From positions 1 to 26,778 of IMG/VR virus record IMGVR_UViG_3300030110_003875: 26,778 bases of DNA. One strand, written 5' to 3'. The notes beneath the pieces are model-generated. The model did no database searches. It worked only from the letters and a program-made list of their open reading frames with translations, and was not told where the DNA came from. The DNA is from a virus. Positions within the stretch are counted from its first letter, which is position 1. The number at the start of each line of letters is the position of its first letter. The position numbers and the translations under genes are program-made. Of this stretch, positions 9,201 through 26,031 are shown in pieces.

Positions 9201-12200
9201 TCAAAATCCAAGTTTAGTTGTCTTAGATGGAGTAACTAAAAAACCAATAACAGACATTGATTTAAGATATAATCCTGAAGAGGAAATTGTTGAAATTTTA
9301 GAAAACACAGAGTCATTAAATGACACAACGCCAACATTGATTCCAATTGGAAATCCAAATGGTATAAGAGCAAAAAATGTCACTTATGATAACTCTACAC
9401 AAGAAGTAACAGTTACAATGAAGAACACCTTCAGTGGCACATTAAATGCCATAGGTGAATATATTGATCCGTTCCCATTTAGCGTCGGTGATAAAGTTCT
9501 CGTTGAAAATGTAAGTGTTGGTGTGGGATCTACAGCCTCTGGATACAATTCATCTGATTACGATTATGCTTTATTCACACTGACAAAGGTTCATCCAAAC
9601 TATGGTGGTGTTGGAATTGTTACTTACAGTATGGCAGAATTTTTACAACAAAACATTGAATTTCCCGGTATATTTAATGCGGTAAAGTCAAATGCTACTT
9701 TAGTTCCTGAAAAATATTTCCCACAGTTTGATGTAAAGTTACAACCAACTGATTTTAGAATTGGTGACGATATTCAAATGGTAGATAGTTCTGGAACTGT
9801 TGTGAAGGGTGCAGTTTCTGGATGGAATAATTCAAGTAAGTATATTACAGTTGAAAGTAATAGAGAGTTTGAGATTGGACAAATAATTGAACAAACAAAA
9901 TTCAGAGGAGAGAGGGGTAGTAATAATGAATACACAGCTCCGACTGGTGCAAAAGGTATCATTAAAGAAAAAATAAAATTTGAAACAAAATATAATTTAG
10001 ATAATTCTTCTATTGTTGATAATGGATGGCAAACAAAAACAGGATTTTTAAATGATGAAATTCAACGTGTTCATGATAATGATTACTACCATGCTTTCTC
10101 CTACTCTGTAAAATCAAAAGTTCAATATGATGAATGGAAAGATATTGTTGGAACATTAAATCATACTGCAGGATTTAAAAAATTTGGTAATCTTCAAGTT
10201 GAATCTCAATTGCCTAATGAAAGATTTGATGATTTAGTGGTTCGTCCAGTAAGTGTTGTTACAAAATTGGTTGATTTAATAAGTGTAGAGAGTTTACAGT
10301 CTTTCAATGATTTTGATTTAGTATCAGAAAATTATGTAAAAGGTTTTGAAAAACCTTTCTCTGACGAGTTTAACTTTAAATCAAGAATACTTACTGACTT
10401 CTCCGAATCAGTATCGAATAGAGTTGTCACGATTGATGACTTCAGTAATTTATTCAATAATAATCCAAGATCAACACCTTATGCGGATGTTTATCGAAAT
10501 AGATTATCTGATGGTAGGACACAATTCTTTGTAGCTTACATTCAAGATAGACTATTTACTGGTGAAAGACAGATCATGATTGTCAATACTTTACATGACA
10601 CTGGTAAAGGCATAACAATGATGAATCAATATGGTTCAGTTGAAACTACTTTAGATCTAGGAACATTTGATTATGTAATAGAAGGTATTGAGTCTGTTCT
10701 TCGTTTCTACCCACATAAATCCAGAATTAATGATTACAATGTAGTATTGTGGTCTTATCAAATTGACACAAATCAATTAGGTGTTTCTACAACAAATGTT
10801 GCCACAGCAACTACATCCATACCAGCAGAACCATATGATCCAACAACCTCTGAAGGATTAAATGGATCTTTAGTAAGTATTCAATCTACATGTGTATCAG
10901 TAGCTGGTGGTGCTGCGGGAACAGTATTCACACTCGCTGGTATTGGAACCACAGTCTCTGGACATAGATCTGCAAAACTATTTGTAAGTGTTGAGGCTAG
11001 TGATGGAAGTGTTGAATATGATCAAGTAAGTATTATTCATGATGGTACAAATGTAGGATTCCAAGAGTATGGTCAATTAACCGTACACTCATCTGATGCA
11101 TATTCATCAACTGGTAATATTGGAACGTTCTTCCCATTAATGGTGGGTAATGATCTTGTTGTCAGATACACACCAGACGCTGGATTAACAACTGCATTTA
11201 TAAATGCAACAGCAATCGGTATCGCAACAGAGGGTTATATTGGTATTGGTTCCTATGATATGGCTTATGCAGAAATGTCTGCACAAAGCACAGGTATATC
11301 TTCATCTGCAACTCCAGTTCCTGTTGGTATTGCAAGTTATAGTGATGCATATGACGCTGCATATTGTATTGTTCAGATTGCTGATAAGTTAAATGGAAGT
11401 TATGAATTAGCAGAAGTTATAATAATTGATGATTACTCTGATGACGATAATGTTTATCTAACTGAATATGGTAATGTTAAAGTTGGAACAGCATTTGCTG
11501 GTCTTGGAACAATTAGTGGTAGAAGAACAACAAACAATATCACTGAATTAACATTTGTTCCTAATGCAGGTATTGGAGTTTCAATTACAACATTCTTAAA
11601 TTCATTAAGAGTTGAAGAAAACTCTGAGTTATTGCCATCCGGTGCTACAAGAGAGGTTGGTGGCGAGGCTGTTAAAGATCTACAAAATGCCTCAATGGAA
11701 AGTGGATTTGCAAACTATGAAGGAACAGAATCAGCAATCAAAACTAAATTTGCTTTAGAGCATAAAGAAGATCCAATATTCAAAAAACCATATGATGGAT
11801 CAGAATCTGAAGTTGTTAATGTTACTGCCAATACTATTACATTACCAAATCACTTCTTTGTGACTGGTGAAGAAGTATCATATGCACATACAGATAGAAG
11901 AACTGGTATTTCATCTGCAATCGGCATAGCTTCAACTGAATTCCCTGCCCTTGGTATAACAACTACTTTAATGCCTTCATCACTCTTCATTATTAAGAAA
12001 GGAGAGAATAAAATTCAATTAGCAAGAAGTGCTCAAGATGCTTTGAAAGAAGTTGCTGTGCCTCTTGATCTAACTCATGTTGGTATCGGAACATCCCACA
12101 CATTTACATCTAAGAATGCAAATACAAGAGTATTAGTTGCAATTGATAATTATCTTCAATCACCTATTGCTGGAACATCAGTTACAACAACTCTTGATAG

Positions 12201-15200
12201 ATCGATTGACAAATCTCAAGATGTCATACATTTCTCAGGTATCACATCATTCTTTGGTGCTGATAACGTTAGAGTAAGTAGTGGTAATACAAGCGAGGTA
12301 ATGAAGATATTATCTGTCGGTATTGGGACAACAAATGGTATTAAAGTAAGAAGACAGAGATTAGGAACAACTATTGCAGGATTCCCAACTGGAGCATTAG
12401 TTGAAAAAATACGTGGTAATTATAATATTGTTGAAAGTGAAATAACTTTCGCAGAAGCACCTCCGGGAAAAAATCCAATAGGATCAGTAACAAATCCTCC
12501 AGATGAAAGAGACTTTGCTGGTATCACAACATCATCAAGTTTCCAAGGAAGAGTGTTTACTCGATCTGGTATTGTCAACGGAACTACAGAAACTTATTCT
12601 ACTAATCATTTGTATGATGATTTGACATCAGACTTTAATGGTAAAAATAGACAGTATGCACTCACTGTAGATAAGGCTCAAAAAACAGGTATCGCTACTA
12701 ATAATGCATTAATACTTATTAACGGTATATTACAAGCACCCGGATCGAATGGTGATTTTGAATTAACAACTGTTGGTTCAGGTACAACAATAACATGGAC
12801 TGGTGCTGCGAGTTCTGTAGCAAGAGATGTAAACACTGCTGGAATACCAGTCGGTGGAATTATTGTGTCAGTTGCATCTACAAGTGGATTTGGATATCAA
12901 CCATTAGTAAGTGCTGGAGGAACGGCAGTTGTATCATTAGCAGGTACTATTAATAGTGTAAGTATTGGTAATACAGGTTCTGGTTATAGATCAGGTATAC
13001 AGACTGTATCTGTAGGTTTACAAACTGAGGGATTTGATCAATCTGGCATAACAACCATTGGTCTTGCTAATGTAACTGATGGTCATGTAACTAGCGTAAG
13101 TATTACTAATCCACAATTCTTCTATAAACCAAGAGACATTTATAATGTTGGTTACTCTTCAATCACTGGTATCACAACTATAACTACCGCATTTGCACAT
13201 AACCTATCTGTTGGTAATGAAGTAGTCGTATCTGGTATTGCATTTACTTGTGACTATGCTCCAGCTGTTGGAGTTCAAAGTGCAAACTATGATAATACAA
13301 CTGGTATTATGACAGTTACTACATCTGCTGCTCATGGTTTATCAGTAACTGGTAAGAGTAGTGATGTAATATTAACTGGTTTAGCATTTACATGTGGACT
13401 CGGTGCTACAGTCAATCACGTTTATCCAAGAAACAGAGATCGTTTCTTCGACACTGCAATATCAATTGCATCTACAACATCAACTTCAATTACTTTAGAT
13501 GTATCCAAGTCTCCAGTTGGTCAACAATATACTCATAGATTTATAGGTGCTGCAAGTAGTGCTGTAATACAAGGTGGTGATTATTCTCACACATTCCGTT
13601 ATGCTCTTGAGAACGCAGTCACAACTGGTGTTGGAACTCAATTTACACCAACAAACGCAACTTATAATGCATCGACTGGAGTATTTGTAATATCAATACC
13701 AAGTCATGGTCTATCTACAAATGATACTGTGGGTATCGGTACAAGTTCAATTGTATTCTCTTGTGAAATGGATAATTATGGCAGCGATCATCCATACCCA
13801 AGACCAACTGATCCGATAGCTGGCATTCAAACTGCGATTACTGCCGTTACTACAAACACCATTACACTGAATGTAGGTAAGTCTGAATTGAACTTCTATG
13901 ACGTGTCTGATGCGACCTATGCTGCTGATACAGGTGTATTAGTACTAACCATAGGTGCTCATACATTATTACCCGGAAGAAGTATTAAATTGAAAAAAGA
14001 GTCTTTAAGATTTACTTGTTCTAAAAATAACTATGCTACTCAACACAGATATCCAAGAGAAGGAGATCCTTATTTTGACGGAACTCCAGTGGTAGGTGTT
14101 GCAAGTGCAACTCAATTTACAATTAATGTTGGTGTATCAACTGTTCCAACACAATATGTTTCTGGTGGATTTATTCAACCAGCGATTATTGCACCAAGAG
14201 CAAATAATAACTCTGCAAGTGGTCAAGATGTAGCATTTGATGGTGCATCAGTCATAAGAGTTCTAAGTGCGACAGAATTTGAAATTAATAGTGGTATATC
14301 AACAAGAGCTCACCTTTACGCAAGAGGTGGTAGAGTTGATCAGTTAACGAAGATTGTTATTGATGATCCACTATCATACAGTGATTTACAATTAATTCAT
14401 AGCACTACAAGTCCCGGATTTGCTGGATCTGAAGCAAGAGCAGATGTTGTTGTAAGTCAAGGATCTACTGTGATGGACTTTAAGATTACTAATACTGGAT
14501 ATGGATATGGTGTTGGTGAAATACTTACATTATCTCTCACTGGTTCAGCTGGAATACCTACTACTTCAAGTTTTGTTGATACTCAAGAATTTAGAATTAC
14601 AATCAATGACATATCAAGTGATAACTTTAGTGGATGGTCTGTTGGATCATTACAAGTATTGGATACTTTCCAAAATTTATTTGATGGATCGAGAAGAACA
14701 TTCCCACTAAGTGTTGGGGGAGATTCATTATCAATTCAGGCAAAACCCGGATCACCTGTTACTGTTCAGGATACATTATTTGTATTTGTCAATGATATAC
14801 TACAAATACCCGGTGAGTCATATACATTCTTAGGTGGTAGTAATATTACCTTTGATGAGGCACCTAAATTTGGAGATACTCTTAAAATATTATTCTATCG
14901 TGGAACAGGTGGTGCGGATGTTGTTGATAGAGATATCATTGAGTCTGTTAAAGTAGGTGATGATTTAACTCTTGGTTATGCAAGATCCCTCAATCAAGAA
15001 AGTTTCTTACAAGAAGAATCAAGAAGTGTCGTTGAGATAACATCATCAAATTCAGTTGACACAAACACATATAATGGCCCCGGTGTATTTGAAGACACTA
15101 GAGTTTATAGACCAATTGTTTGGACTAAACAAACTGAAGACAAAATTGTTGAGGGTAAAATAGTACATAAGGATAGAGACTTATATAAAGGTAACTTATC

Positions 15201-16200
15201 CCCAACTACAAACTTTATTCAAACAGTTGGTGTTGGCACAACTGTTGCTTATGTAACTGGTGTAAGACCATTCTTTAATGCAAAGAATGAAAACTCCGTA
15301 TCAACAGAGTTCCAAAAAAATATTGTCATTATTAATAATGTTGAAAGATTAGCAGCTGCAGCGACTGCAATTGTTTCTGCTGCTGGAACAATATCATCAG
15401 TTGCAATTTCAACGGGTGGTAGAGGATATGATAGTGCACCAACTGTAACTATACAAAATCCTGTTGGACTTGGAACCACTGCTCGTGCTGAAGCAACTGC
15501 TTCAATTACAAATGGTGTTGTGACAAGCATATCTGTCTCAACTGCCGGTACAGAATATAGTGATGCAACTCCACCAGTTGTTCTTATTGGTGCGGATCCA
15601 GTTCTTGAAGAACAAAATACAGTTATATCATATAATGGTGATCATGGTATCATCACTGGTATTGGAACTACATCTTTAGCTGGTGTTGCTGTTACTGGTA
15701 TAGTATTTGATTTAGTGATTCCAGCGGATTCATTCTTGAGAAAATCTGAGTTTACACAAGGAGCATCGGGTTCAGGTGCTAATAGTGGTATCGTTACCTC
15801 TGGATTAAACGTAGGTGATTTCTTCATTGTAAGTAATTCTAACGTAGGTCATGGATTAACATCACTAAATACAGATGGTAGTTCTGTGGGTGTTGGTACA
15901 ACTTACATCGACAATGTTTATCGTGTTGCTCACCGTACACTTGGTGTTACAACTGATGCGATGGGATTTGGATCAACAGTCGTTACACAGGTCGTAGTCA
16001 GTGTTAATAGTCTTAACGGATTAACTGGTTTAGGTTATAGTATGTACTTTGGTGACTATAGTTATGGTAAGTTAATGCTTAATGATAGAAACACAGTTCG
16101 CTCTTATCCAGTTAACACATCTAACGGAGTTACTGGTATATTGACAGGGCCAATCGTCAAGAGAAAACAATTCTTAAAAACTCAAAGTTATTCCACATAA
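2425..16200 (+). CDS. 7: Giant gp7-like baseplate wedge protein (4591 residues)
   Basis: A single uninterrupted frame encodes 4591 residues, against about 1032 for T4 gp7. Two segments identify it. The first, DFYSTRGTDESFNILFGALYG at about 192-212, followed by a glutamate-valine-isoleucine-like stretch and a V-N-R-T-L-Y motif, resembles gp7's YDFYSTKG region. The second, with YYHAFSYSVKSK at 2554-2565, W2571 and H2580-TAGF, resembles the later gp7 segment that ends in a His-Pro-x-Gly-Phe motif. Position between gp6 and gp8 agrees with the T4 order 6-7-8. Between these two anchors, and for 2,000 residues after them, lie repeated beta-rich modules: GxGY repeats, His-x-Leu-x-x-Gly modules, a degenerate YHYH domain at about 1313-1410, a duplicated domain at about 2820-3070 and a Cys/His-YPR array at about 3580-3890. 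I infer that the core docks in the wedge and the extra modules project outward. The codon use and AT-rich composition look like those of the neighbours. The gp7 assignment rests on remembered T4 sequence, so treat it as likely rather than proven. Confidence 0.8.
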   Translation: MSEKRVKLNQIVKNQLPSYVQEDFPLVGSFLSQYYQGQEYQGGPIDLIQNIDSYIKLSECGSLIKSTNTTAYAGVTTSTIFVSNTTGFPDNYGLIKINDEVITYESKTDISFVNCKRGFSGITSFRNPSDPENLVFTTSTAGKHENNTTVENLSVLFLDEFLKKTKNQFLHGFQKDLNEKVNKSQFIRQSKDFYSTRGTDESFNILFGALYGEQVDIIRPIDDVIKPSNADYRKTRDFIVEPYVGDPENLVNRTLYQDEFENISKAYAPVGSVEKVAVGINTNTYYKLSLDAGQSNPDGSTSLIYGNFSTHSKTTIIGQVGIAQTYIDVDSTLGFPNSGTLSFLYENGTSGVCTYSDRTINQFLGINTTGITTSIADNTAIDQSTFVYASDGETDNGIQVKIRGVLNNLIIPPDVNNQKIGSKIKIKNLGKIGNNVKENNWLFNTSQSYVVKSLEIVDSVNSTYKLVTQDTNILRIGDKVTTHETLAEGTQWGDKITETFEPASNKLYTVTDVFDNNTCLITGTGISEPTKVTKVSRRISKVDSDIHSNLNKFTANIQNIYIKPDGGLVNGVPYYGPSHEHPTKGTMMVGEKHISGFHETIDPIEGQNKVYVASSSLPFTGVAKLNPKTQKLTFGGTYNKNDEEIKISDQVDHNYFTGDSVYYTPQKGSVNTVDSEGNTIFQEYIISRLFAEGLYYIKRIDANTVKFAKSQSDIYRGIFTKVTPDGGVDSVTIASNDIEKYQFQGKVIQPQKLVREVSIPINESQKVTTNPGYTGILVDGVEVLNYKSKDFVYHGKLESVNVVKGGENFDIINPPVVAIDDSVGSGATAKAAVRGSLKEIRILDSGFDYIEEPIIKITGGNGRNANAAAKLNTVQHELIINGDGVGLGTIKLDAAGINTSSIGFTTYHRFRQGERVVYDPLGSIPIVGLATQATYYVSSVSEYTVTLHKSYDEAITGVNTISFTSYGSGVQSFKSLNGKAVLSSVVILNSGSGYENKERSCESTGISTALSIINIPSHDYKTGEIVKYSVDGTTIDGLSTDKEYYVSVVNDDQFKLAAVGVGTTVSNFYLKTNQFNEFRNTGVGTHTFNYPSISVEVIGRVGVSSISGNTFEASVQPIFRGEITSLQLTSTGVGYGASEILNFNRVPEINLNTGRDAVITPVVANGRIVDVSVSYGGTDYNSPPDLVVLGIGSDAKLVPQINSSGTITSVNIESGGIGYGATTTTIRVDASGKGSGFQPYLQKWRVNEFRKNLSNLNDDDVFISSPTNRLFGLQCSYIYAARNLRRISYSNDADGKTLFGKKDLSIISGVESDSDQHSPILGWAYDGNPIYGPYGYSRRDGGDIVQLKSGYVDETSKKDNRPPTSSFPPEFFVEDFTYKVSNDDSILDENNGRFCVTPEYPNGTYAYFSTFDSTAASDGIFKNFKKPKFPYLIGDKYNSRPNRFNFSRVSNQIDFDINKSNSIRNVYPLSLNKDFSGYDYLTESYKFVNQDSNIDYVTKGGVNSVGITSGGINYKVNDRIVFDPNVDSSFEARGKVTKLKGSISGISVSTETISGVKFYRDVGATFVGIASTSLNLQNNVIVNVGGLSTTKSDLLGSYSIGISSTRLILSQGIGTAGATGIVTFFNVEGNLERIRTNDRFKVGLSTETVKVLEVDTLSSRIRVLRPVEAVGVSHTQSTILEEIPRVFTFSSGIKTSFTAREDKELYFNPSNSIGTSHSDPDNETGIGNTITINNPGAGPTTRLIPRGSIFIPQHGLKTGDVVNYELNGVNGSETAPKVKFFTATPTVNTTVGIGTSLFVIRKTDNLIGLSTVRVGLGSTGIRFGLGLTGTLPTFEEIQFLDVGIGSIHSLRFKDRNVVTGKIDRNVVTIVGTGTHGLTNNDTVFVDVNPGINTTITVKYNKIRRKAIFNPLDYVAAGITTNAATGGIRNSINIDDHKLTTGTKVIHTSDSPIGLDNNKEYYVYVVDTNTLKFVDGKYQLSQEFPEFVGITSTGSGTISPINPPFVFYKDSNAIFDLTDSSLSYTQSSTKYPAFYFDFYKDQKFNEVYETSGVTESFDVSRTGTIGVTGDAKVTLKVNENTPSNLYYKLSPVDISDNLTENKEIVIDDEVILNNNITTKISGYSGEFKIVSTGSTTFQYDVESLPESTSYTPTTSTLKYTTISTSTYGSIDEITVTESGGGYQVVPGITTITSDVGSGAVIEVFSSTIGKPTKISLENIGFNYPSDNTLKPEALFPQVLRITPLSGFKSIGITSFGKGYNQNPSLVVLDGVTKKPITDIDLRYNPEEEIVEILENTESLNDTTPTLIPIGNPNGIRAKNVTYDNSTQEVTVTMKNTFSGTLNAIGEYIDPFPFSVGDKVLVENVSVGVGSTASGYNSSDYDYALFTLTKVHPNYGGVGIVTYSMAEFLQQNIEFPGIFNAVKSNATLVPEKYFPQFDVKLQPTDFRIGDDIQMVDSSGTVVKGAVSGWNNSSKYITVESNREFEIGQIIEQTKFRGERGSNNEYTAPTGAKGIIKEKIKFETKYNLDNSSIVDNGWQTKTGFLNDEIQRVHDNDYYHAFSYSVKSKVQYDEWKDIVGTLNHTAGFKKFGNLQVESQLPNERFDDLVVRPVSVVTKLVDLISVESLQSFNDFDLVSENYVKGFEKPFSDEFNFKSRILTDFSESVSNRVVTIDDFSNLFNNNPRSTPYADVYRNRLSDGRTQFFVAYIQDRLFTGERQIMIVNTLHDTGKGITMMNQYGSVETTLDLGTFDYVIEGIESVLRFYPHKSRINDYNVVLWSYQIDTNQLGVSTTNVATATTSIPAEPYDPTTSEGLNGSLVSIQSTCVSVAGGAAGTVFTLAGIGTTVSGHRSAKLFVSVEASDGSVEYDQVSIIHDGTNVGFQEYGQLTVHSSDAYSSTGNIGTFFPLMVGNDLVVRYTPDAGLTTAFINATAIGIATEGYIGIGSYDMAYAEMSAQSTGISSSATPVPVGIASYSDAYDAAYCIVQIADKLNGSYELAEVIIIDDYSDDDNVYLTEYGNVKVGTAFAGLGTISGRRTTNNITELTFVPNAGIGVSITTFLNSLRVEENSELLPSGATREVGGEAVKDLQNASMESGFANYEGTESAIKTKFALEHKEDPIFKKPYDGSESEVVNVTANTITLPNHFFVTGEEVSYAHTDRRTGISSAIGIASTEFPALGITTTLMPSSLFIIKKGENKIQLARSAQDALKEVAVPLDLTHVGIGTSHTFTSKNANTRVLVAIDNYLQSPIAGTSVTTTLDRSIDKSQDVIHFSGITSFFGADNVRVSSGNTSEVMKILSVGIGTTNGIKVRRQRLGTTIAGFPTGALVEKIRGNYNIVESEITFAEAPPGKNPIGSVTNPPDERDFAGITTSSSFQGRVFTRSGIVNGTTETYSTNHLYDDLTSDFNGKNRQYALTVDKAQKTGIATNNALILINGILQAPGSNGDFELTTVGSGTTITWTGAASSVARDVNTAGIPVGGIIVSVASTSGFGYQPLVSAGGTAVVSLAGTINSVSIGNTGSGYRSGIQTVSVGLQTEGFDQSGITTIGLANVTDGHVTSVSITNPQFFYKPRDIYNVGYSSITGITTITTAFAHNLSVGNEVVVSGIAFTCDYAPAVGVQSANYDNTTGIMTVTTSAAHGLSVTGKSSDVILTGLAFTCGLGATVNHVYPRNRDRFFDTAISIASTTSTSITLDVSKSPVGQQYTHRFIGAASSAVIQGGDYSHTFRYALENAVTTGVGTQFTPTNATYNASTGVFVISIPSHGLSTNDTVGIGTSSIVFSCEMDNYGSDHPYPRPTDPIAGIQTAITAVTTNTITLNVGKSELNFYDVSDATYAADTGVLVLTIGAHTLLPGRSIKLKKESLRFTCSKNNYATQHRYPREGDPYFDGTPVVGVASATQFTINVGVSTVPTQYVSGGFIQPAIIAPRANNNSASGQDVAFDGASVIRVLSATEFEINSGISTRAHLYARGGRVDQLTKIVIDDPLSYSDLQLIHSTTSPGFAGSEARADVVVSQGSTVMDFKITNTGYGYGVGEILTLSLTGSAGIPTTSSFVDTQEFRITINDISSDNFSGWSVGSLQVLDTFQNLFDGSRRTFPLSVGGDSLSIQAKPGSPVTVQDTLFVFVNDILQIPGESYTFLGGSNITFDEAPKFGDTLKILFYRGTGGADVVDRDIIESVKVGDDLTLGYARSLNQESFLQEESRSVVEITSSNSVDTNTYNGPGVFEDTRVYRPIVWTKQTEDKIVEGKIVHKDRDLYKGNLSPTTNFIQTVGVGTTVAYVTGVRPFFNAKNENSVSTEFQKNIVIINNVERLAAAATAIVSAAGTISSVAISTGGRGYDSAPTVTIQNPVGLGTTARAEATASITNGVVTSISVSTAGTEYSDATPPVVLIGADPVLEEQNTVISYNGDHGIITGIGTTSLAGVAVTGIVFDLVIPADSFLRKSEFTQGASGSGANSGIVTSGLNVGDFFIVSNSNVGHGLTSLNTDGSSVGVGTTYIDNVYRVAHRTLGVTTDAMGFGSTVVTQVVVSVNSLNGLTGLGYSMYFGDYSYGKLMLNDRNTVRSYPVNTSNGVTGILTGPIVKRKQFLKTQSYST
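6280..6655 (+). other. YHYH-type domain, signature degenerate
   Basis: Residues about 1286-1410 of the giant protein show the YHYH-domain pattern. LGWAYDGNPIYGPYGY lies at 1321-1336 and NGRFCVTPEYPNGTYAYF at 1391-1408. Typical members have a D-G-x-P-I-Y-G motif, then an N-G-R-F-x-x-T-P-E-Y-P-x-G-T-Y element and then the Y-H-Y-H string. Here the last element reads YAYF at 1405-1408, so both histidines are missing. The domain is known in secreted bacterial proteins and as an insert in cyanophage structural proteins; its function is unknown. Surface display on the tail is an inference. Confidence 0.75.
9985..10200 (+). other. Second gp7-like core segment
   Basis: Residues about 2521-2592 of the giant protein read like the conserved gp7 segment just before its C-terminal region. 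There is an aromatic YYHAFSYSVKS stretch at 2554-2564, W2571, then a hydrophobic helix and an N-H-T-A-G-F turn at 2579-2584 in place of the usual H-P-x-G-F. It is followed by a further conserved-looking region (about 2660-2790) that mentions no repeat pattern. In T4 gp7 this segment lies only about 150 residues after the FYSTKG motif by my recollection; here it lies some 2,350 residues after. Confidence 0.55.
10861..11625 (+). repeat. Two-copy duplicated domain in the giant protein
   Basis: Residues about 2820-2940 and 2960-3070 are two copies of the same fold. Each has a hydrophobic strand (AKLFVSVEASDGSVEYDQV and AYCIVQIADKLNGSYELAEV), then an H/D-D-x-x-x-V acidic turn, then an x-E-Y-G-x-(L/V)-x-V strand, a Gly-rich stretch and a final strand ending in T/V-P-(D/N)-A-G. 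Copies are clearly diverged, so the duplication is old. This domain pair lies directly after the second gp7-like core segment and may be a fibre or decoration module; its function is not known to me. Confidence 0.7.
12630..12815 (+). repeat. Fibre-type beta module, copy 1
   Basis: Residues about 3403-3464 follow the pattern N-R-Q-Y-A-L-T-V, then A-L-I-L-I-N-G-I-L-Q-A-P-G, then a hydrophobic strand with I-T-W-T-G. The second copy lies at 14680-14925. Each copy holds one 'x-x-I-N/D-G/D-I-L-Q-x-P-G' turn. I recognise this as a module that recurs in marine phage tail proteins, without a known function. Confidence 0.6.
13165..14165 (+). repeat. Cys/His-YPR tandem modules in the giant protein
   Basis: Residues about 3580-3915 contain tandem units of roughly 85-125 residues. 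Each complete unit has an A/S-H-x-L turn, then F-(T/S)-C, then H-x-Y-P-R about nine residues on, then an acidic residue and a strand with T-(I/F)-x-(L/I)-(D/N)-V. The cysteines are C3609, C3657, C3780 and C3865; the His-x-Tyr-Pro-Arg motifs begin at H3665, H3789 and H3874. The first cysteine (C3609) lacks its own HxYPR and looks like a shortened unit. The steady pairing of Cys and His could mean a metal site, but nothing else supports that. Confidence 0.7.
14680..14925 (+). repeat. Fibre-type beta module, copy 2
   Basis: Residues about 4086-4167 read G-S-R-R-T-F-P-L-S-V, then TLFVFVNDILQIPGESY, then N-I-T-F-D-E-A-P and a strand ending F-Y-R-G-T-G. It matches the module at 12630-12815 but is longer and closer to the usual form. 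It precedes the C-terminal 400 residues, which end with two more GxGY-type repeats and a short tail. Confidence 0.65.
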
Positions 16201-16218: not shown

Positions 16219-17769
16219 ATGGCAGCTATAATTACTGATCAGATAAGAATATTAAATGCAAAGAATTTTGTTGCAGGAGTTTCAACGTCTACTAATTCAT
16301 ATTATTCATTCGTAGGTTTAACAGATCCAACAGCAATACAATCAGATTGGGACGATGATCCCCCTTCTCCAATTGATAATTTTACAAATCATAATGATTT
16401 TTGGGACACTGCAATCGCTTTAAAGAAGATAAATGCGACTGATGTAAAACAAGTGGTTAAGAAGAACTCTTGGACTTCTGGAACAACTTATGATTATTAC
16501 AGAGCTGACTATAGTATAACCAATCCACCTAAACATGCACAAGGAACATCATTATATTCCTCTAATTATTTTATATTAAATAGTGATTTTAGAGTTTACA
16601 TTTGTTTAAAAAACGGAACAAGTCCTGAACAACCAGACGGTAAACCATCATTAGATGAACCAACATTTACCGATTTGGAACCAAAGGTTGCTGGAACAAG
16701 TGGTGATGGATACGTTTGGAAATATCTTTATACAATAAAACCCTCAGAGTTAGTCAAGTTTGACTCAACAGAGTACATGCCAGTTCCCTCAGATTGGGCA
16801 ACCGGATCAGATAACTCTGCTGTAAGAGACAACGCAGTTGATGGTGGTATTAAGGTTATTGTTATACAAGATCGTGGTGTTGGATTAGGAACTGCAAATA
16901 GAACATATACAAGAGTCCCTATTAAAGGTGATGGTAGTGGTGCCGAGTGCACAGTGGTTGTAAATGCAGATCAACAAATTGGATCTGTTGATATAACCAA
17001 TCAAGGGTCAGGATATACATTTGGAACGGTTGATATCGTGGCTGGTGGTTTACCAAGACCAGACTCATATCCCCAACTTGATGTTGTTATACCTCCAACT
17101 GGTGGTCATGGATCAGATATCTATAAGGAATTAGGTGCAACTAATGCTTTAGTATATTCTAGAATTGAAAATGATTCTGAAAATCCAGATTTTATCACAG
17201 GAAATCAAATTGCAAGAATCGGCATTCTTGAAAATCCAAAAGCATTTGGATCATCGTCAACACTTACCTTAGACAAAGCAAGTGCAGCATACGCCATGCG
17301 TCTTACTGGAACTGGATATAGTAGTGCTACATTTACTGCAGACGCTATTATTACACAAACTACTGGCACAGGTGTCACTGCGATAGGAAAAGTAATTAGT
17401 TATGAACAGACTACTGGCGTTTTAAAATATTGGCAAGATCGCACTATGGCTGGATTTACAACTGTGGGTGCTGCAACAACAACACCAATTTATGGATTTA
17501 ATGCTGATAGATTTACAGCGGATATATCTGATGGTGGAAGTGTAAATATAACAGGAGGAAGTATTTCTCTTGGTATTAACACGAGTTTTGATGGTTTATC
17601 AACCTCAATAAATAATAAAACATACTACCTTGGTCAAACATTTACAAGTGGTTTATCTAATCCAGAAGTTAAAAAATATTCTGGAAACATGCTTTATATT
17701 GATCATCGACCAGCAATCACACGTTCTTCTAATCAAAAAGAAGATATCAAAGTTATATTACAGTTCTAA
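16219..17769 (+). CDS. 8: Baseplate wedge subunit gp8
   Basis: This 516-residue protein matches T4 gp8 (334 residues) at several points: the G-D-G-Y-V-W-K-Y-L-Y-T-I motif at about 162-173, E-Y-M-P-V-P at about 184-189, and the C-terminal ending YSGNMLYIDHRP...EDIKVILQF, which lines up with T4's HSGEMIYMENRP...EEINILFTF. gp8 dimerises and links gp7 and gp6 arms in the baseplate wedge. The extra 180 residues lie in the middle: a GSGY-type repeat (about 235-275) of the same kind as in the giant gp7-like protein, and a beta-rich stretch at about 345-485. The start is the first ATG after the promoter-like site. I see no Shine-Dalgarno. The next gene begins six bases after the stop. Confidence 0.92.
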   Translation: MAAIITDQIRILNAKNFVAGVSTSTNSYYSFVGLTDPTAIQSDWDDDPPSPIDNFTNHNDFWDTAIALKKINATDVKQVVKKNSWTSGTTYDYYRADYSITNPPKHAQGTSLYSSNYFILNSDFRVYICLKNGTSPEQPDGKPSLDEPTFTDLEPKVAGTSGDGYVWKYLYTIKPSELVKFDSTEYMPVPSDWATGSDNSAVRDNAVDGGIKVIVIQDRGVGLGTANRTYTRVPIKGDGSGAECTVVVNADQQIGSVDITNQGSGYTFGTVDIVAGGLPRPDSYPQLDVVIPPTGGHGSDIYKELGATNALVYSRIENDSENPDFITGNQIARIGILENPKAFGSSSTLTLDKASAAYAMRLTGTGYSSATFTADAIITQTTGTGVTAIGKVISYEQTTGVLKYWQDRTMAGFTTVGAATTTPIYGFNADRFTADISDGGSVNITGGSISLGINTSFDGLSTSINNKTYYLGQTFTSGLSNPEVKKYSGNMLYIDHRPAITRSSNQKEDIKVILQF

Positions 17770-17775
17770 TAACTC

Positions 17776-20700
17776 ATGGCTCAAACCACAAATTTAAACG
17801 TATCGCCATACTTTGACGATTTTAATGCAGATGACAACTACTATAAGGTGTTGTTTAAACCGGGTGTGCCTGTTCAAGCAAGAGAACTAACTGGATTACA
17901 ATCAATATTACAAAATCAGATTGCTAAATTTGGTCAACATTTTTTTAAAGAAGGATCAAAAGTAATACCCGGAAATACAACCTATATTGATAATTATAAA
18001 TGCGTAGTAGTTAATAAAGAATATCTTGGAATAACTGTAGAGTCTTATATTGATCAATTATTAGATCAAAAAATATTTGGAGCGACATCTGGTGTAAGTG
18101 CGACCATAGTACAAATTATAAAATCTAAAGATTCTATAGACGGTGAATTAGCTCTTTACCTTCAATATGAATCTCAGGGTATTGAAAGCGCAGACGCTGT
18201 TGAATTTCAAGATGGAGAAAATTTAATTGCAAATATTAATATCACGTCAGGGCCAGAAAGTAGTGCTTTTATTCCAGCCGGTGAAGCTTTTGCATCGACA
18301 TTTTCAGTTGATTGTGTCGCTACGGGTTCTGCTTTTTCAATTAATGAAGGAGTTTATTTTGTAAGGGGTAATTTTGTCACAGTTAATTCACAAACTATAA
18401 TATTAGATCAATATTTTAATGATCCTACTGGTAGAATTGGATTAAAAATTTTAGAAGAGACAATAAACTCTGATGAAGATGCAAATCTTACAGATAATTC
18501 TAAGGGATTTAATAATTTTGCTGCTCCCGGTGCTGACCGCTTAAAAATATCTTGTTCTCTTACATTTAAAGGTATTGATGATTTTAATGATAATGATTTT
18601 ATAGAACTGGCATCTGTAAGAGAAGGTAATTTAGTAACAAAGACGACAACAACTGAATATAATCTAATTGCGAACGAATTAGCAAGAAGAACTTTTGATG
18701 AATCTGGAGATTATATAACAAAACCATTTACAATCAAAGTAAGAGAGTCAGCAAATAATGGAATCGGTAATAATGGTGTGTATCAAGAGGGACAAACTAC
18801 TTTTGATGGTGAACAAGCATCTGAAGAATTAGGTTTATATCAAGTATCATCTGGTAAAGCATATGTGAAAGGTTATGAAGTAAATAAACAAAACACAGAA
18901 TTTGTTGATTTTTTCAAACCAAGAACCACAAAAACTCTTGAAAATCAGGCAATAAATTATAACACCGGTGCATCATTAAGATTAAATCGTGTTTTAGGAT
19001 CTCCTGAAGTTGGTATTGGTAACACATATATTGTGAGTTTAAGAGATCAAAGAACAGGAACTCAAAGTGCAGCAAATATCATGTCTGCTCCCGGAGAGGA
19101 AATAGGTTTAGCAAGGGTATATGACTTTGCACTTGAGTCAGGAGCTTATAATACATCAACTCCAACTGCAAATGAATGGGATATATCACTATATGATGTT
19201 CAAACATTTACAAAGATAACTTTAAATACTAATCATACACTTTCTACACCAACTTTTGTAAAAGGAAAGTATAGTGGTGCTACAGGATTTTTAAGATCTG
19301 CAGTATCAGCATCTACCTCATTACAGGTTTATGAAACAAATGGAGAGTTCGTTCCAAATGAACCATTAATATTCAACGGCATTGAGAATTCTCGTGTGTC
19401 TGTTGCGGTTACAAGTTTTGGTGTAAGAGATGTTAAATCAATATTTGGTGGAACAGGACTAACAGATCAGAATAGTGGTGATGTTGGTTTTGCAAGAACA
19501 TTTACAGGTGACGTTAAGTTAAGGAATGAATTTATATTTGGTTCTGCTAATGTTACATCATCAACAGGGAGTGGAGGATCTGGAATTAGTACAATTACAA
19601 GTGGAAATGAACAGTTTCCCGGAAAAGTAAAAGTAGGTAATATTTTAAAATTTGGTGGACTTGGAAAAAATACTAAAACATTAGCAAGAGTAACTGCTGT
19701 AAGTAGTAGCAGTATCATTGTTGCTGGTGTAACCACCGTTGCAGGAGTAGCAGAGGGATTTTTACCTTTGGGTACAGCTGGATCATCTGTTGAAGTTCCA
19801 GATTTAACATTGGTGTCAAGTCCATTTGAAAAGTCAGATGATAATACTCTTTTTACATCACTACCAAAATCTCTAATATCAGATGTTGATTTAAGTGATG
19901 CGACTCTTGCGATTAGAAAAGTATTCAACGTTGCAATAAGTGCGTCTACAGATGCATTAACTGGTGCAGTTACAGCAGGAGATAATACTACATTTTTACC
20001 ATTTGATGAAGAAAGATATAGTTTGATAAGGGCAGATGGCACAATCGAGACATTGACTGACGATAAGTTTACCTTCACAAATGGAAATGGAACACTTCAG
20101 ATTAGTAATATTGGTGCAGATTTATCTGCAAATCAAGAAGCAACACTAATTGCAACTCTTAATAAAGTAAAACCAACAGCTAAAGTAAAAAGAAAAAATG
20201 CAGTTAATTCACTTGTCGTAGATAAATCAAATTTATCTGGATCAGGTATTGGTCGAACTACTCTTAATGATGGGTTGACTTATGGAAGTTACCCATTTGG
20301 AACTCGTGTACAAGATGAAAAAATATCTCTTAATACACCAGATGTTTTTGATATTTTAGGTATTTTTGAATCGACTGATACGAGTGATCCATCTTCACCA
20401 AAAATGACATTATCATCCATTAACACAGTTGATGGTGGGACAACTGATCTATTATTGGGAGAACAAATAAAAGGATCAACTTCTGGTGCGGTTGCTATCT
20501 ATACTGAACAACTTACGGATTCTCAAATTTCTTATATTCCAACAAATGAAAGTGAATTTGTGGAAGGTGAGTCTGTATTATTTGTGAACTCAAATGTTCA
20601 AGCCATCGTGAATACAATAGATGTTCCATCGAGAAATATCTCCGCAGACTTTACATTTAATAACGGTCAAAGTTCGACTTTATTCAATCATGGATTTATT

Positions 20701-23700
20701 ACAAAGAAAAGTAATGTTAATACACCAACTAAAAAAATAAAAATATATTTTACAAACGGATTTTTTGAATCTGACGATACAGGTGATATCACCACTGTTA
20801 ATTCTTATGGAGATTTAGATTATAAAAATGATGTTCAATCTATCAATGGTTTAAGAAATACTGATTTATTAGACATAAGACCTAGAGTTTCAAGTTATAC
20901 TGTTGCAGAGAGTAATAGATCACCACTTGAATTTTTAGGTAGATCATTAAATGCATCTGGAAATTCAGCATCTAATGTTCTTGCATCGGATGAATCAATA
21001 ACAGTTGATTTTTCTTTTTACTTAGGAAGAATTGATAAATTATATCTTACAAAAGCTGGTGAATTAACACATGTTCCCGGAACACCTGCAGAAGAACCAG
21101 ATTCTCCAGTTGCAGTAGACGATTCGCTTGAATTAGCAACTATTACGTTACCAGCATATCTTTTTGATGCTTCAGAGGCAACTATGTCTTTCTTGAAACA
21201 TAAAAGATATAGGATGGAAGATATAAGAAAACTTGAAACTAGAATAAAAAATTTAGAATATTATAGTTCATTAACTCTTTTAGAGACAGCAACCGCAAAT
21301 TTATTTGTTCCTGATGAGGATGGTTTAAACAAATTTAAATCTGGATTTTTTGTTGATAATTTCACAACCTTCCAACCTCAAGAGTCTGAAATACCTGTAA
21401 AAAATAGTATTGACTCCACAAATAAAGAATTAAGACCATCCCATTATACTTCCTCTATTGATTTACAAGTTGGCCCTGTTGAAGGTGAAACAAGCATTTA
21501 TACTGGAGCAGCACCTGAAGGAGTTAATATTAGAAAAACTGGAGATGTCATAACATTAGATTATGATGAAGTAGAATATCTTAATCAGACTTTTGGAACA
21601 AGATCCGAAAGTGTCACTCCATTTCTACTTAATTTCTGGGAAGGATTTGTTAAGTTGACACCTTCTACTGATACTTGGGTTAACACTGTTAGACTTGAAT
21701 CGAACGTTTTTGAAACTGAGGGCAATTTTGAAGATGTAACTAGAACAGCAGAAAGAAGGTATGGAGGTTTTGATCCACAAACAGGATTAACACCCTTAAT
21801 TTGGGGTGGTTGGCAGACTAATTGGACTGGAACAAGAAAAGAGAGTAGAGTTAGAAAAAGAAGAGAAGTAACAGGTAGAAAAACATTTAGATCTACATCC
21901 GGTTATAATTATAAAGATATAGAAAGAACAACTACAACAACATTCCAAGATACATTTACTGATACATTTAGAACAGGAACAGAATCAAGAGATGGTTCAA
22001 GACAATTAATCACTGAACAATTTGATCAAACATCTCTGGGTGATAGGACAATAAGTTCAGCCATTGTTCCCACAATTAGATCAAGAAACGTTGCTTTTGA
22101 TGGAAAAGGATTTTTACCACAAGCAAGACTCTTTGGATTCTTTGATGGTGTTAATGTAACAAAATATTGTGTACCAAAACTGATTGAAATAGAAATGGTA
22201 TCTGGTAGTTTCCAAGTTGGCGAAACTGTCACGGGAACTATTAAAACAAATCCTAACTTAGCGTCTGATCCACCATATATTCAATTTAGAACTGCCGTTT
22301 CAAACCATAAAGAGGGCCCTCATGATGTACCAACAAAAAGATATCTTAGAAATCCCTATACAGATACACAAGTAGCAAATTTAGCACTTGAATCTTTTGG
22401 TGGTAATGTGGGTCAAATTTTAGCAGGTGGTGGAGGTAGTTCTTCAATCATACCAAGCACTTATTCATCAACTTCAACTTTGTTAAATGTTGACACAGTG
22501 GCACTTGCCAATCAACCACAAGGAGACTTTTTTGGATATGTTCAAACTGGTATGATCCTAAAAGGTGGAACATCAGGTGCTGAAGCAAAAATTACAAATG
22601 TTAGATTAGTAACTGATTTTACATCAACAGTTCAAGGTAGTTTCTATATTCCAAATCCAAATGTTAATACAAATCCAGTTTTCCAAACAGGAGAGAGGGA
22701 TTTCTTATTAACAGATGATCCAGAAAATGATCCTGCTGAAGCAACCACTACAGGTAAAGATATCTACACTGCAAGTGGATCAGTTCAAACGGTTCAAGAA
22801 AATATTGTTTCTGTGAGAAATGCTAAGATTGTTAATCTTTTTGAATCACAAGACAGAGCTGTTTCTGAACAAATCGGAACTGAAGTTGACACTGAAGTTG
22901 AAGGAGAAGAAACATCTGATAGAACTATAGGAACTGGCAGAACCTACAGAGGGGGTCATTATAATAGAAGAAGAAGGAGAAATCGAGTTGGTAAGAGAAA
23001 CAGGGGTAAGAAAGGTAAGAAGGGTGGTAAGAAAGGAGGCGGTTGTTTTATGCCCGGCACCTTAATGACACTTGCCGATGGATCTCAAAAGAAAGTAGAG
23101 GAAATTAAAGTTGGTGATAAGTTACTAGGTTTATCTGATACAATCAATGAAGTAAAAGAAGTTTTAAATCCTAAGACAAACGGAAGAAAACTAGCAAACA
23201 TAAACGATAAGGGATACTTTGTAACAGAAGATCACCCATTCATGACATCTGATGGTTGGAAATCTTGTAATCAAGAAATTTCTAATGAAAACTATCCTGA
23301 CCTTGAAGTTAATCAACTTGAAATTGGTGATGAGATAAAATGTAAAGGTAATGAAGTTGAGAAAGTAACCTCAATAGAATTTAAAGAAGTTGATGCTAAC
23401 ACTGACTTGCATAACTTTACATTAGATGGTGATCATACATATATCGCTAATAACTTTGTTGCACATAATAAACGTGGTGGTGGACGTGGAAATGAGAAGG
23501 CTGGAGATCCATTAGCACAATCATTCTTTATAAAAGAGGAACAGGGTGTATTTTTAACAAGTTGTGAGGTGTTCTTTGAAAGAAAAGACCCGAATGATAT
23601 TCCAGTAACAATTCAAATAAGAACTATGAAAACTGGATTACCAACAACAGAGGTAGTTCCTTTTTCAGAGGTTACAATAGATCCAGATCAAATTACTACT

Positions 23701-26031
23701 TCCACTAATGGTAGTGTTCCATCTAAGTTCACATTTGAATCTCCAGTCTATCTTGAGGGTGGTGCTGAATACGCAATTGTATTAAAATCTGTATCTTTAA
23801 AATATAAAGTTTTCATATCAAGAATTGGTGAAAATGATCTAATTACGGATGAATTTGTATCTAATCAACCGACTTTAGGTTCATTATTTAAATCACAAAA
23901 TGCTTCAACATGGGAACCAAGCCAATGGGAGGATCTGAAGTTTAAATTAAATAGAGCAAATTTCGTTTCAGAGGGAATCGTTGAATTATATAATCCAATA
24001 CTATCAAGAGGAAATTATCAAATTCCAAAATTGATGCCAGATGCCTTGCAAACTCACTCGAAAAAAGTAAGAGTTGGTCTATCATCTGCATTTGGTGCAG
24101 GTATTCATCCAACATTTGGAAATACAATTTATCAGCAAGGATCAAATGTCACTGGTAATTTAGTTGGAACTTCTGGTGCTGCTTCTGGTTCTTTGACAGT
24201 TACAAGAGCTGGTATTGGATATACGTCATCGAACGCATCTGTTGCCTCTCGTGATGGTGATGGTCATACTGTTGCAGGAGTCGCTTTATCAGCAATCACA
24301 GGAAGCGGAGTAAACGCAGTCGCGACTGTTGAATATAACGAGGGATCAATAGTCAATGCAACTGTATCGTCAGGAGGTCAAGGTTATCAAATTGGAGATG
24401 TTTTAGGAATTACAACTGATTTAGGTATTAACGGAAGATTGTCTGTGGTAGCGATTGCTGCAACGAGTGAATTAATAGTTGACAATGTTCAGGGTGTATT
24501 CTTAACTGGTGCTGGAACAACTCTTATGTATGGTACAGCAGATGGTGATGTTGGTAGCACAAAGGCTGGAGTTGGTAGTGCTATTTGTGGTAACGGTGGA
24601 AGTTCTGGAGCATTTATTACTGACGGAACTGTTATATCCGTAACAGATGGTCTACACATTACTGTAAATCACAAGAATCATGGAATGTATCATGAACAAA
24701 ACTTGGTTACAATATCAGACGTAACAGGTGATATACCACCAACTAAGTTATCAGTTCCTTATAACAATAGTTCAACAGATCCTATCACTGTTGATAATAT
24801 TGGCATTCTTACATCGTTTGAAAATGTTTCAGTTGCTGCGACAAATCCCGGATATGTTAAAGTAAAAAATGAGATTATAAAGTATACTGGTGTATCAGCA
24901 TTCTCCGGTCAAGGAACAATCACTGGTGTTACACGAGCACAAGATTCAACAAGTGCTCAGAATTATGTTAAAGGTGATTTAGTTCAAAAATATGAACTTG
25001 GAGGTGTATCTTTACGTCGTATCAATCGAACTCATGATTTCAGAGAAGTGACTGACACTAATCCTATAACACTTGATTCATATAAAATAAAAGTGGATAT
25101 GGGAGAACAAGGGATCGGAAGAAGTACCTCTGATGTAACAAGTTACCCAGCTTTATTCTTAGATCAAACAAAATCAACTGGAGGCCTTAATATACGTGCT
25201 ACTCAAAATATGCCATTTGAAATTATCACTCCAATGATTCAAAATATGACCGTTTCTGGAACAACAATAGAATCTTTTGTTAGGACTGTAAGTGGAACAA
25301 GTGTAAATGATGGTTCGGGTGAAGGGACAGATGTTCCGTTCATAAACAAAGGTGAGGAAGCTATCGCTCTTGATGATATTAATTATCTTGACTCTCCTAG
25401 AGTCATTGCCTCAAGGGTAAATGAATTAAATACTGCAACTCTTAATGTATTACCGGGTGATAGGTCTTTAAACATATCATTGACATTACTTTCAGGGGAT
25501 AATTTACTATCACCAGTAATCGATACTCAAAGAATGAACGCGATATTGACCTCTAACAGAATTGATAATGTAATTGGTGATGTCACTGTTGACAGTAGAG
25601 TTGATACTCTACTTGATGACCCATCATCTGCGGTCTATGTTTCAAAAGAAAATATTCTTGAAACTTCTGCTACATCACTCAAAATTATCGTTGATGCTCA
25701 CGTCAATAACTTTAGTGACATAAGAGCATTCTATGCGATAAGTAATTCTCAAGGATCTGAACCAACATTTGTTCCATTCCCCGGATATGATAATTTAGAT
25801 GAAAATGGTAGAGTAAGAACAACTGATAAGAGTAGTGGTAGACCCGATGCATTAATCAATAAGAGTGATCCTACAGGATTTATACCAGAAGAACTTGAAT
25901 ATAGGGAATATACATTTACAGCAAATGAATTACCTTCATTCAAATCATTTAGAATTAAATTCTTAATGACTTCAACTAATCAGGCATTCGTACCTAGATT
26001 AACAAGTTTGAAAGTTATCGCAACTGCCTAA
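17776..26031 (+). CDS. DUF4815-type giant tail/baseplate protein with a Hint domain
   Basis: This 2751-residue protein opens with the DUF4815 pattern seen in many marine T4-like phages: PYFDDFNADDNYYKVLFKPG at 11-30, then VPVQARELTGLQSILQNQI. A KAYVKGYEV element lies at about 361-369. A helical stretch rich in Arg and Glu, with RMEDIRKLETRIKNLEYYSS, sits at about 1146-1165 and may form a coiled coil. A very basic linker at 1731-1753 leads into a Hint domain at 1757-1898. The conserved DPLAQSFF motif at 1911-1918 and a beta-sandwich-like region (about 1919-2090) follow. Residues about 2130-2240 hold GxGY-type repeats like those of the giant gp7-like protein. The protein ends in a strand pair with SFRIKFLMTSTNQAFVP. 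It takes the place of T4 genes 9-12 between gp8 and gp13, so I infer a role in peripheral baseplate or fibre attachment. It starts six bases after gp8 with no clear Shine-Dalgarno, and its stop overlaps the next start as TAATG. Confidence 0.88.
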   Translation: MAQTTNLNVSPYFDDFNADDNYYKVLFKPGVPVQARELTGLQSILQNQIAKFGQHFFKEGSKVIPGNTTYIDNYKCVVVNKEYLGITVESYIDQLLDQKIFGATSGVSATIVQIIKSKDSIDGELALYLQYESQGIESADAVEFQDGENLIANINITSGPESSAFIPAGEAFASTFSVDCVATGSAFSINEGVYFVRGNFVTVNSQTIILDQYFNDPTGRIGLKILEETINSDEDANLTDNSKGFNNFAAPGADRLKISCSLTFKGIDDFNDNDFIELASVREGNLVTKTTTTEYNLIANELARRTFDESGDYITKPFTIKVRESANNGIGNNGVYQEGQTTFDGEQASEELGLYQVSSGKAYVKGYEVNKQNTEFVDFFKPRTTKTLENQAINYNTGASLRLNRVLGSPEVGIGNTYIVSLRDQRTGTQSAANIMSAPGEEIGLARVYDFALESGAYNTSTPTANEWDISLYDVQTFTKITLNTNHTLSTPTFVKGKYSGATGFLRSAVSASTSLQVYETNGEFVPNEPLIFNGIENSRVSVAVTSFGVRDVKSIFGGTGLTDQNSGDVGFARTFTGDVKLRNEFIFGSANVTSSTGSGGSGISTITSGNEQFPGKVKVGNILKFGGLGKNTKTLARVTAVSSSSIIVAGVTTVAGVAEGFLPLGTAGSSVEVPDLTLVSSPFEKSDDNTLFTSLPKSLISDVDLSDATLAIRKVFNVAISASTDALTGAVTAGDNTTFLPFDEERYSLIRADGTIETLTDDKFTFTNGNGTLQISNIGADLSANQEATLIATLNKVKPTAKVKRKNAVNSLVVDKSNLSGSGIGRTTLNDGLTYGSYPFGTRVQDEKISLNTPDVFDILGIFESTDTSDPSSPKMTLSSINTVDGGTTDLLLGEQIKGSTSGAVAIYTEQLTDSQISYIPTNESEFVEGESVLFVNSNVQAIVNTIDVPSRNISADFTFNNGQSSTLFNHGFITKKSNVNTPTKKIKIYFTNGFFESDDTGDITTVNSYGDLDYKNDVQSINGLRNTDLLDIRPRVSSYTVAESNRSPLEFLGRSLNASGNSASNVLASDESITVDFSFYLGRIDKLYLTKAGELTHVPGTPAEEPDSPVAVDDSLELATITLPAYLFDASEATMSFLKHKRYRMEDIRKLETRIKNLEYYSSLTLLETATANLFVPDEDGLNKFKSGFFVDNFTTFQPQESEIPVKNSIDSTNKELRPSHYTSSIDLQVGPVEGETSIYTGAAPEGVNIRKTGDVITLDYDEVEYLNQTFGTRSESVTPFLLNFWEGFVKLTPSTDTWVNTVRLESNVFETEGNFEDVTRTAERRYGGFDPQTGLTPLIWGGWQTNWTGTRKESRVRKRREVTGRKTFRSTSGYNYKDIERTTTTTFQDTFTDTFRTGTESRDGSRQLITEQFDQTSLGDRTISSAIVPTIRSRNVAFDGKGFLPQARLFGFFDGVNVTKYCVPKLIEIEMVSGSFQVGETVTGTIKTNPNLASDPPYIQFRTAVSNHKEGPHDVPTKRYLRNPYTDTQVANLALESFGGNVGQILAGGGGSSSIIPSTYSSTSTLLNVDTVALANQPQGDFFGYVQTGMILKGGTSGAEAKITNVRLVTDFTSTVQGSFYIPNPNVNTNPVFQTGERDFLLTDDPENDPAEATTTGKDIYTASGSVQTVQENIVSVRNAKIVNLFESQDRAVSEQIGTEVDTEVEGEETSDRTIGTGRTYRGGHYNRRRRRNRVGKRNRGKKGKKGGKKGGGCFMPGTLMTLADGSQKKVEEIKVGDKLLGLSDTINEVKEVLNPKTNGRKLANINDKGYFVTEDHPFMTSDGWKSCNQEISNENYPDLEVNQLEIGDEIKCKGNEVEKVTSIEFKEVDANTDLHNFTLDGDHTYIANNFVAHNKRGGGRGNEKAGDPLAQSFFIKEEQGVFLTSCEVFFERKDPNDIPVTIQIRTMKTGLPTTEVVPFSEVTIDPDQITTSTNGSVPSKFTFESPVYLEGGAEYAIVLKSVSLKYKVFISRIGENDLITDEFVSNQPTLGSLFKSQNASTWEPSQWEDLKFKLNRANFVSEGIVELYNPILSRGNYQIPKLMPDALQTHSKKVRVGLSSAFGAGIHPTFGNTIYQQGSNVTGNLVGTSGAASGSLTVTRAGIGYTSSNASVASRDGDGHTVAGVALSAITGSGVNAVATVEYNEGSIVNATVSSGGQGYQIGDVLGITTDLGINGRLSVVAIAATSELIVDNVQGVFLTGAGTTLMYGTADGDVGSTKAGVGSAICGNGGSSGAFITDGTVISVTDGLHITVNHKNHGMYHEQNLVTISDVTGDIPPTKLSVPYNNSSTDPITVDNIGILTSFENVSVAATNPGYVKVKNEIIKYTGVSAFSGQGTITGVTRAQDSTSAQNYVKGDLVQKYELGGVSLRRINRTHDFREVTDTNPITLDSYKIKVDMGEQGIGRSTSDVTSYPALFLDQTKSTGGLNIRATQNMPFEIITPMIQNMTVSGTTIESFVRTVSGTSVNDGSGEGTDVPFINKGEEAIALDDINYLDSPRVIASRVNELNTATLNVLPGDRSLNISLTLLSGDNLLSPVIDTQRMNAILTSNRIDNVIGDVTVDSRVDTLLDDPSSAVYVSKENILETSATSLKIIVDAHVNNFSDIRAFYAISNSQGSEPTFVPFPGYDNLDENGRVRTTDKSSGRPDALINKSDPTGFIPEELEYREYTFTANELPSFKSFRIKFLMTSTNQAFVPRLTSLKVIATA
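22966..23043 (+). other. Basic Gly/Lys/Arg linker before the Hint domain
   Basis: Residues 1731-1756 run from an R-R-R-R-R stretch through alternating Arg, Asn, Gly and Lys to K-K-G-G-K-K-G-G-G. Of the 23 residues 1731-1753, 15 are Lys or Arg and none is acidic. The same character resumes after the Hint domain as K-R-G-G-G-R-G, so the Hint domain appears to interrupt a single flexible basic linker. The segment before it (about 1690-1715) is acidic, which makes a sharp charge switch. Confidence 0.8.
23044..23469 (+). other. Hint (intein-like/BIL-type) domain, 142 residues
   Basis: Residues 1757-1898 of the DUF4815 protein carry the standard Hint blocks. Block A begins CFMPGTLMTLADGS with the nucleophile C1757, followed by K-x-V-E-E-I-K-V-G-D. 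Block B is G-Y-F-V-T-E-D-H-P-F with the T-x-x-H pair. The C-terminal blocks are DLHNFTLDGDHTYIANNF and then V-A-H-N, with penultimate H1897 and terminal N1898. At 142 residues there is no room for a homing endonuclease. The residue after the terminal Asn is K1899, not Cys, Ser or Thr, so standard splicing is not expected. This fits bacterial-intein-like (BIL) Hint domains, which cleave or splice by alternative routes. A frame without stops runs through it, so it is translated with the host protein. Confidence 0.9.

Follow-up and report, generated by a model that had tools for sequence, protein, structure and literature searches.

The window analysed here is the whole 26,778-nucleotide stretch of IMG/VR record IMGVR_UViG_3300030110_003875, and it contains a baseplate block of T4-like type from an uncultured, marine virus. 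A gp25-like gene (88-489) and a gp6-like gene (490-2421) are followed by a single giant open reading frame of 4591 aa (2425-16200), lying between gp6 and gp8, and then by a gp8-like gene (16219-17769). Behind these comes the gene of main concern, which encodes a protein of 2751 aa (17776..26031, plus strand) assigned by Pfam and PHROG profiles to DUF4815 / phrog_358; the match to PF16075 (DUF4815) has an E-value of 6.5e-56 and 190 bits, as against a cut-off of 30, while the phrog_358 profile scores 1986 bits. A separate family, PHROG 5986, covers only the C-terminal part of this host protein, and the start of its C-terminal half resembles cyanophage genes annotated as ‘structural protein’ or ‘VrlC’ at up to 64% identity (1541 phage records were matched). 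VrlC has been described as a stand-in for T4 gp7 in the baseplates of marine myophages (PMC7029224).

Within the host protein, a basic linker rich in Gly, Lys and Arg (residues 1724-1756; 22945..23043, this and the following features all being on the plus strand) leads into an A-type BIL-like Hint domain of 142 aa (residues 1757-1898; 23044..23469), which contains no homing endonuclease. Behind it a short linker, KRGGGRGNEKAG (23470..23505), connects to the C-terminal half, the first residues of which are DPLAQSFF (23506..26031). A preliminary description of this DNA had proposed that a complete catalytic set for Hint chemistry is present, and this is borne out in the 2751-aa reading frame: C1757 (23044..23046), the predicted nucleophile of an N-S acyl shift, follows G1756; the block B TxxH motif (23224..23235) supplies T1817 (23224-23226) and H1820 (23233-23235), the histidine being nearly invariant across 53 Hint sequences; and block G (23464..23469) supplies H1897 (23464-23466) and N1898 (23467-23469), the latter being the predicted site of Asn cyclisation. 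The residue numbers given there for K1899 (23470..23472), which stands directly behind N1898 at the +1 position, proved exact, as did the division of the chain into an N-terminal part of 1756 aa, the Hint domain of 142 aa and a C-terminal part of 853 aa.

That residues 1757-1898 form a real Hint domain follows from profile searches, fold prediction and structure comparison taken together. Five Pfam families of Hint type match residues 1753-1852, each under its own curated cut-off, and a profile built from 15 homologues finds solved BIL and intein structures with E-values of 1.5e-10 to 1e-5, the best being 6y75/6tmm (BIL2) at 1.5e-10, with 2lwy (a C. thermocellum BIL) at 5.9e-8. Structural modelling, which the preliminary description had put forward as a check, was carried out using AlphaFold2; a model based on 15 sequences was poor (pLDDT 52.5) and was superseded by one based on an alignment of 53 sequences, which predicts a Hint fold with a pLDDT of 92.1 and a pTM of 0.85. 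In the VIA structure comparison this model gave Z-scores of 12-20 against 50 intein, BIL and Hedgehog entries, BIL2 coming first (Z 19.9 over 142 residues, 2.1 A), followed by gp41-1 (Z 16.7) and 2lwy (Z 16.6). From the full-length superposition we infer that the two active-site ends of the modelled domain meet.

As to class, the domain is closest to the A-type BIL domains, and it is well preserved. Besides the N-terminal nucleophile and block B TxxH that are characteristic of the Hint superfamily as a whole (C1757, T1817 and H1820), it has the C-terminal His-Asn pair of the A-type, which is invariant; it has Lys rather than a Cys, Ser or Thr at +1 in 15 of 15 complete copies; and it lies in a variable host region, namely a low-complexity linker that in most homologues carries no Hint domain. 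Other candidate classes were rejected. A class 1 (classical) intein would not be expected to have K1899 at +1 in place of Cys, Ser or Thr, nor to sit in a variable low-complexity linker with no conserved motif; a homing intein would have an endonuclease embedded in or adjacent to it; a B-type BIL would have no intein-like block G, whereas HN is present here; and in a Hedgehog Hog domain one would expect a sterol-recognition region to follow, not 853 residues of baseplate protein.

The best match in both profile and fold, BIL2 of Tetrahymena thermophila BUBL1 (6Y75, 6TMM), likewise lies between independently folded parts, shares the Cys at position 1, the block B His and the HN end, and has been reported to use amine (Lys) chemistry, but it differs in being eukaryotic and zinc-dependent, in having ubiquitin-like flanks and in its sequence (23% identity). 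The A-type BILs (C. thermocellum, 2LWY) are similar in being compact, in lacking an endonuclease, in lying within a variable region and in having an HN end without a Cys, Ser or Thr at +1, while the phage baseplate host, the invariant Lys at +1, the lateral exchange of cassettes and the tandem copies set the present domain apart. The class 1 intein gp41-1 (6QAZ) shares the fold, the mini size and the phage origin; it splices with Ser at +1, and is located in a helicase-type protein. What is seen here is thus a known class of self-processing domain in an unusual setting; the literature searched, which mostly did not extend to subscription papers, contained no description of a Hint domain within a DUF4815 protein.

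Comparison of homologous sequences indicates that the Hint domain is a cassette that has been passed laterally between distantly related viruses and that evolves under purifying selection. The Hint domain of the window is 87-88% identical in protein and 89-90% in DNA to those of contigs L008 and L009, the values for L008 being 88% and 89%, yet the host proteins of both are only 45% identical to that of the window (58% in DNA), and dS is 0.36-0.41 in the Hint domain as against about 1.1 in the hosts; in L010 the host is 34% identical to that of the window and the Hint domain 81%. The mismatch also runs the other way, as the hosts of L008 and L012 are 68-72% identical while their Hint domains are only about 30% alike. 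This lack of agreement between cassette and host relatedness is evidence that mini-domains of this kind pass from one virus to another with no endonuclease to help them, and a scan of genes in the window and of the neighbouring genes in L003 and L008 found no homing endonuclease. Across the 5′ boundary of the cassette DNA identity goes down from 88% to 57%, and at the 3′ boundary the shared unit runs about 11 nt past the edge of the Hint domain, and so stops within the short linker. In L005 and L097 the domain is present in tandem. Values of dN/dS are about 0.1-0.17 in most Hint pairs (0.27 for copy 1 of L005). Comparing homologues with and without the insert, as had been suggested earlier, showed that L017, L018 and L021 share 83% identity with the window protein over its C-terminal half and have a similar linker but no Hint domain, and no isolate with a Hint domain in a DUF4815 protein was found in the phage collection. 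The linkers of L018 and L021 at the Hint position are very long, of low complexity and rich in Ser, Gly, Lys and Arg.

Our preferred reading, to which we would assign a probability of roughly 0.6, is that residues 1757-1898, as a Hint domain resembling the A-type BILs, remove themselves from the baseplate protein by self-processing. In type A BILs, according to a review, the +1 nucleophile is absent, an N-terminal thioester is formed and Asn cyclisation cuts the chain; the flanks can be joined, at a low level, through attack of the released amino group on the thioester, cleavage products being dominant (PMC4031507). BIL2 has been found to join its flank to Lys through an isopeptide bond (PMC8616854). 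On the basis of this chemistry, self-cleavage would be expected at G1756/C1757 and N1898/K1899, together with some ligation. The acyl group of G1756 would pass to C1757 as a thioester, and cyclisation of N1898 would cut the chain before K1899; the thioester could then either be hydrolysed, leaving two separate halves, or be attacked by an amine of the fragment beginning with K1899, giving a re-joined protein. Cleavage would dominate, with some amine-mediated ligation, and the element would persist since the linker can accommodate both results. On this view the cassette spreads laterally and removes itself, has no homing endonuclease and is not a conserved maturation protease.

In favour of this reading we count the predicted fold, the active-site residues, the purifying selection, the exchange confined to one linker and the invariant Lys at +1. 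Several points weigh against it: altered residues in L007 and in copy 2 of L005 (see below) mean that some copies may be impaired; in the lineage with a split host gene (L094-L097) the Hint domain still precedes a long tail region, so that its removal may serve something there; and the invariance of the lysine exceeds what a purely selfish, sequence-indifferent element would need. The preliminary description was right to name cleavage on the N- and C-sides as the expected products, while its statement that normal splicing should fail was too strong, A-type BILs without a +1 nucleophile being known to splice at low level (PMC4031507).

The +1 lysine is a preferred state of this Hint class and no accident. 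Each of the 15 complete copies from hosts of DUF4815 type ends in HN-K, and none of them departs from C1, the block B His, HN or K+1, although these copies span two Hint lineages that are only about 30% identical. The lysine codon is AAA in ten copies and AAG in five or six, and an oddity or sequencing error is ruled out by this use of two codons in 15/15 copies; an origin in linker composition is unlikely, as the linker of L008 is composed of Arg and Gly and its +1 residue is still Lys. A wider scan of viral contigs yielded 39 Hint clusters at 60% identity, 23 of which have a clear +1 residue other than Cys, Ser or Thr, Lys being the commonest (K 10, G 5, R 4, A 2, Y 1, I 1). Since simple pattern reading of +1 misassigns copies with HNY or HNF in block F, several clusters were corrected from sequence, and those with no readable end were excluded. 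At following positions Lys makes up 6.3%, so that 10 of 23 corresponds to a binomial p of 6e-7, though the clusters are not fully independent. In several viral proteins (among them L160, L176 and L230) the Hint domain is C-terminal and its +1 lysine is the final residue, while in bacterial relatives the +1 residue is K, R, D or A.

The invariant lysine points to amine chemistry resembling that of BIL2, and a tentative alternative is that splicing here is programmed to accept lysine, K1899 using its alpha or epsilon amine to attack the thioester at C1757 so as to re-join the flanks efficiently, possibly through an isopeptide bond, or to link the N-terminal part to another Lys-bearing chain. The constancy of the lysine in two codons, its excess among clusters, its retention even as a last residue and the isopeptide chemistry of BIL2 all speak for this; set against it are the G, A or R found at +1 in other viral Hint domains at similar places, the incomplete independence of the clusters, and the possibility that a basic residue might merely aid Asn cyclisation or suit a basic linker. 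It is conceivable, at a similarly low level of confidence, that there is a mobile Hint class of phage tail proteins in which Lys at +1 (preferred generally, and invariant in DUF4815 hosts) replaces Cys, Ser or Thr, amine attack serving to excise the domain and re-join or cross-link its flanks, with an isopeptide bond as one option, and in which bare cassettes, sometimes in tandem, pass from virus to virus and settle in low-complexity linkers.

Four contigs, L094-L097, have a host gene that is interrupted at the Hint site. Their ORF1 carries one or two Hint domains ending HNK (in L095 it matches phrog_358 positions 665-1383) and stops partway through a Peptidase_S74 domain; the 84-aa ORF2 encodes the remainder of that domain; and ORF3, corresponding to the separate C-terminal half, starts MSDKLIDPLAQTF and matches phrog_358 from 1421. 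The presence of the halves as separate genes implies that separate chains are viable in that lineage. This split, the restriction of PHROG 5986 to the C-terminal part and the purifying selection on the Hint domain could be taken to mean that the baseplate protein is cut on purpose during assembly, into parts of 1756 and 853 residues. We consider such a functional maturation cleavage improbable, given that close relatives without the Hint domain retain a single chain, that its presence is patchy and that it was not found in isolates. A role in virion maturation or in attachment to the cell, both raised in the preliminary description, is left unsupported by the 83%-identical relatives without a Hint domain, by the phage collection, in which no isolate was found to have it in this protein, and by the mobility of the cassette; the same observations fit a tolerated intein-like element better than a conserved virion function. 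The Peptidase_S74 tail-fibre intramolecular chaperone is also a self-cleaving tail module, and shares the same linker in L094-L097, but differs from the Hint domain in fold and chemistry. Its split has the same form in all four contigs (e.g. L095 4351-4688), one part (SDFQLKTNI...) lying at the end of an ORF and the other in the 84-aa ORF, which begins 8 nt past the stop.

That the domain is a degenerate, inactive intein remnant which has lost its +1 Cys is quite unlikely. The lack of a +1 nucleophile and of a homing endonuclease would fit, as would altered block residues in L007, where the block F histidine is lost (HTY to NTY), and in copy 2 of L005, which starts CFMLNT; these changes imply that some copies may be impaired. 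A dN/dS of about 0.14, catalytic residues that are invariant across about 30% identity and the recent lateral exchange of intact copies nevertheless tell against it. Least probable is that a thioester on the virion surface captures amines of the host cell: such a bond can arise by Hint chemistry and the host protein is of baseplate type, but the Hint domain is not conserved along with that protein, and the thioesters of Hint domains are as a rule resolved inside the chain.

These results put A-type BIL domains in viral proteins of the baseplate and tail tip, in marine viruses and in others. They also offer a clean test, set by nature, of the way BILs act in the absence of a +1 nucleophile. In L168, L169, L184, L201 and L211, Hint domains were seen close to the N-terminus of the tail-tip protein J (phrog_31), with K, A or G at +1, L184 being assigned to protein J from sequence likeness only. 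Those of L168, L169, L201 and L211 resemble the Hint domain of the window in their tail-protein location, usually within a Gly-rich stretch, and have K or A at +1, but differ in host family and are only about 25-32% identical to it. Tail-type proteins in L111, L112, L115 and L117 end, after a Gly-rich stretch, in a Hint-like N-terminal part (CFIAGT..ADGSQKAVE) without a C-terminal HN. In L156, L165 and L176 there are C-terminal arrays of at least three Hint domains, in which HNR or HNK directly precedes the next Cys and the last Hint has HNK or HNKL at the stop.
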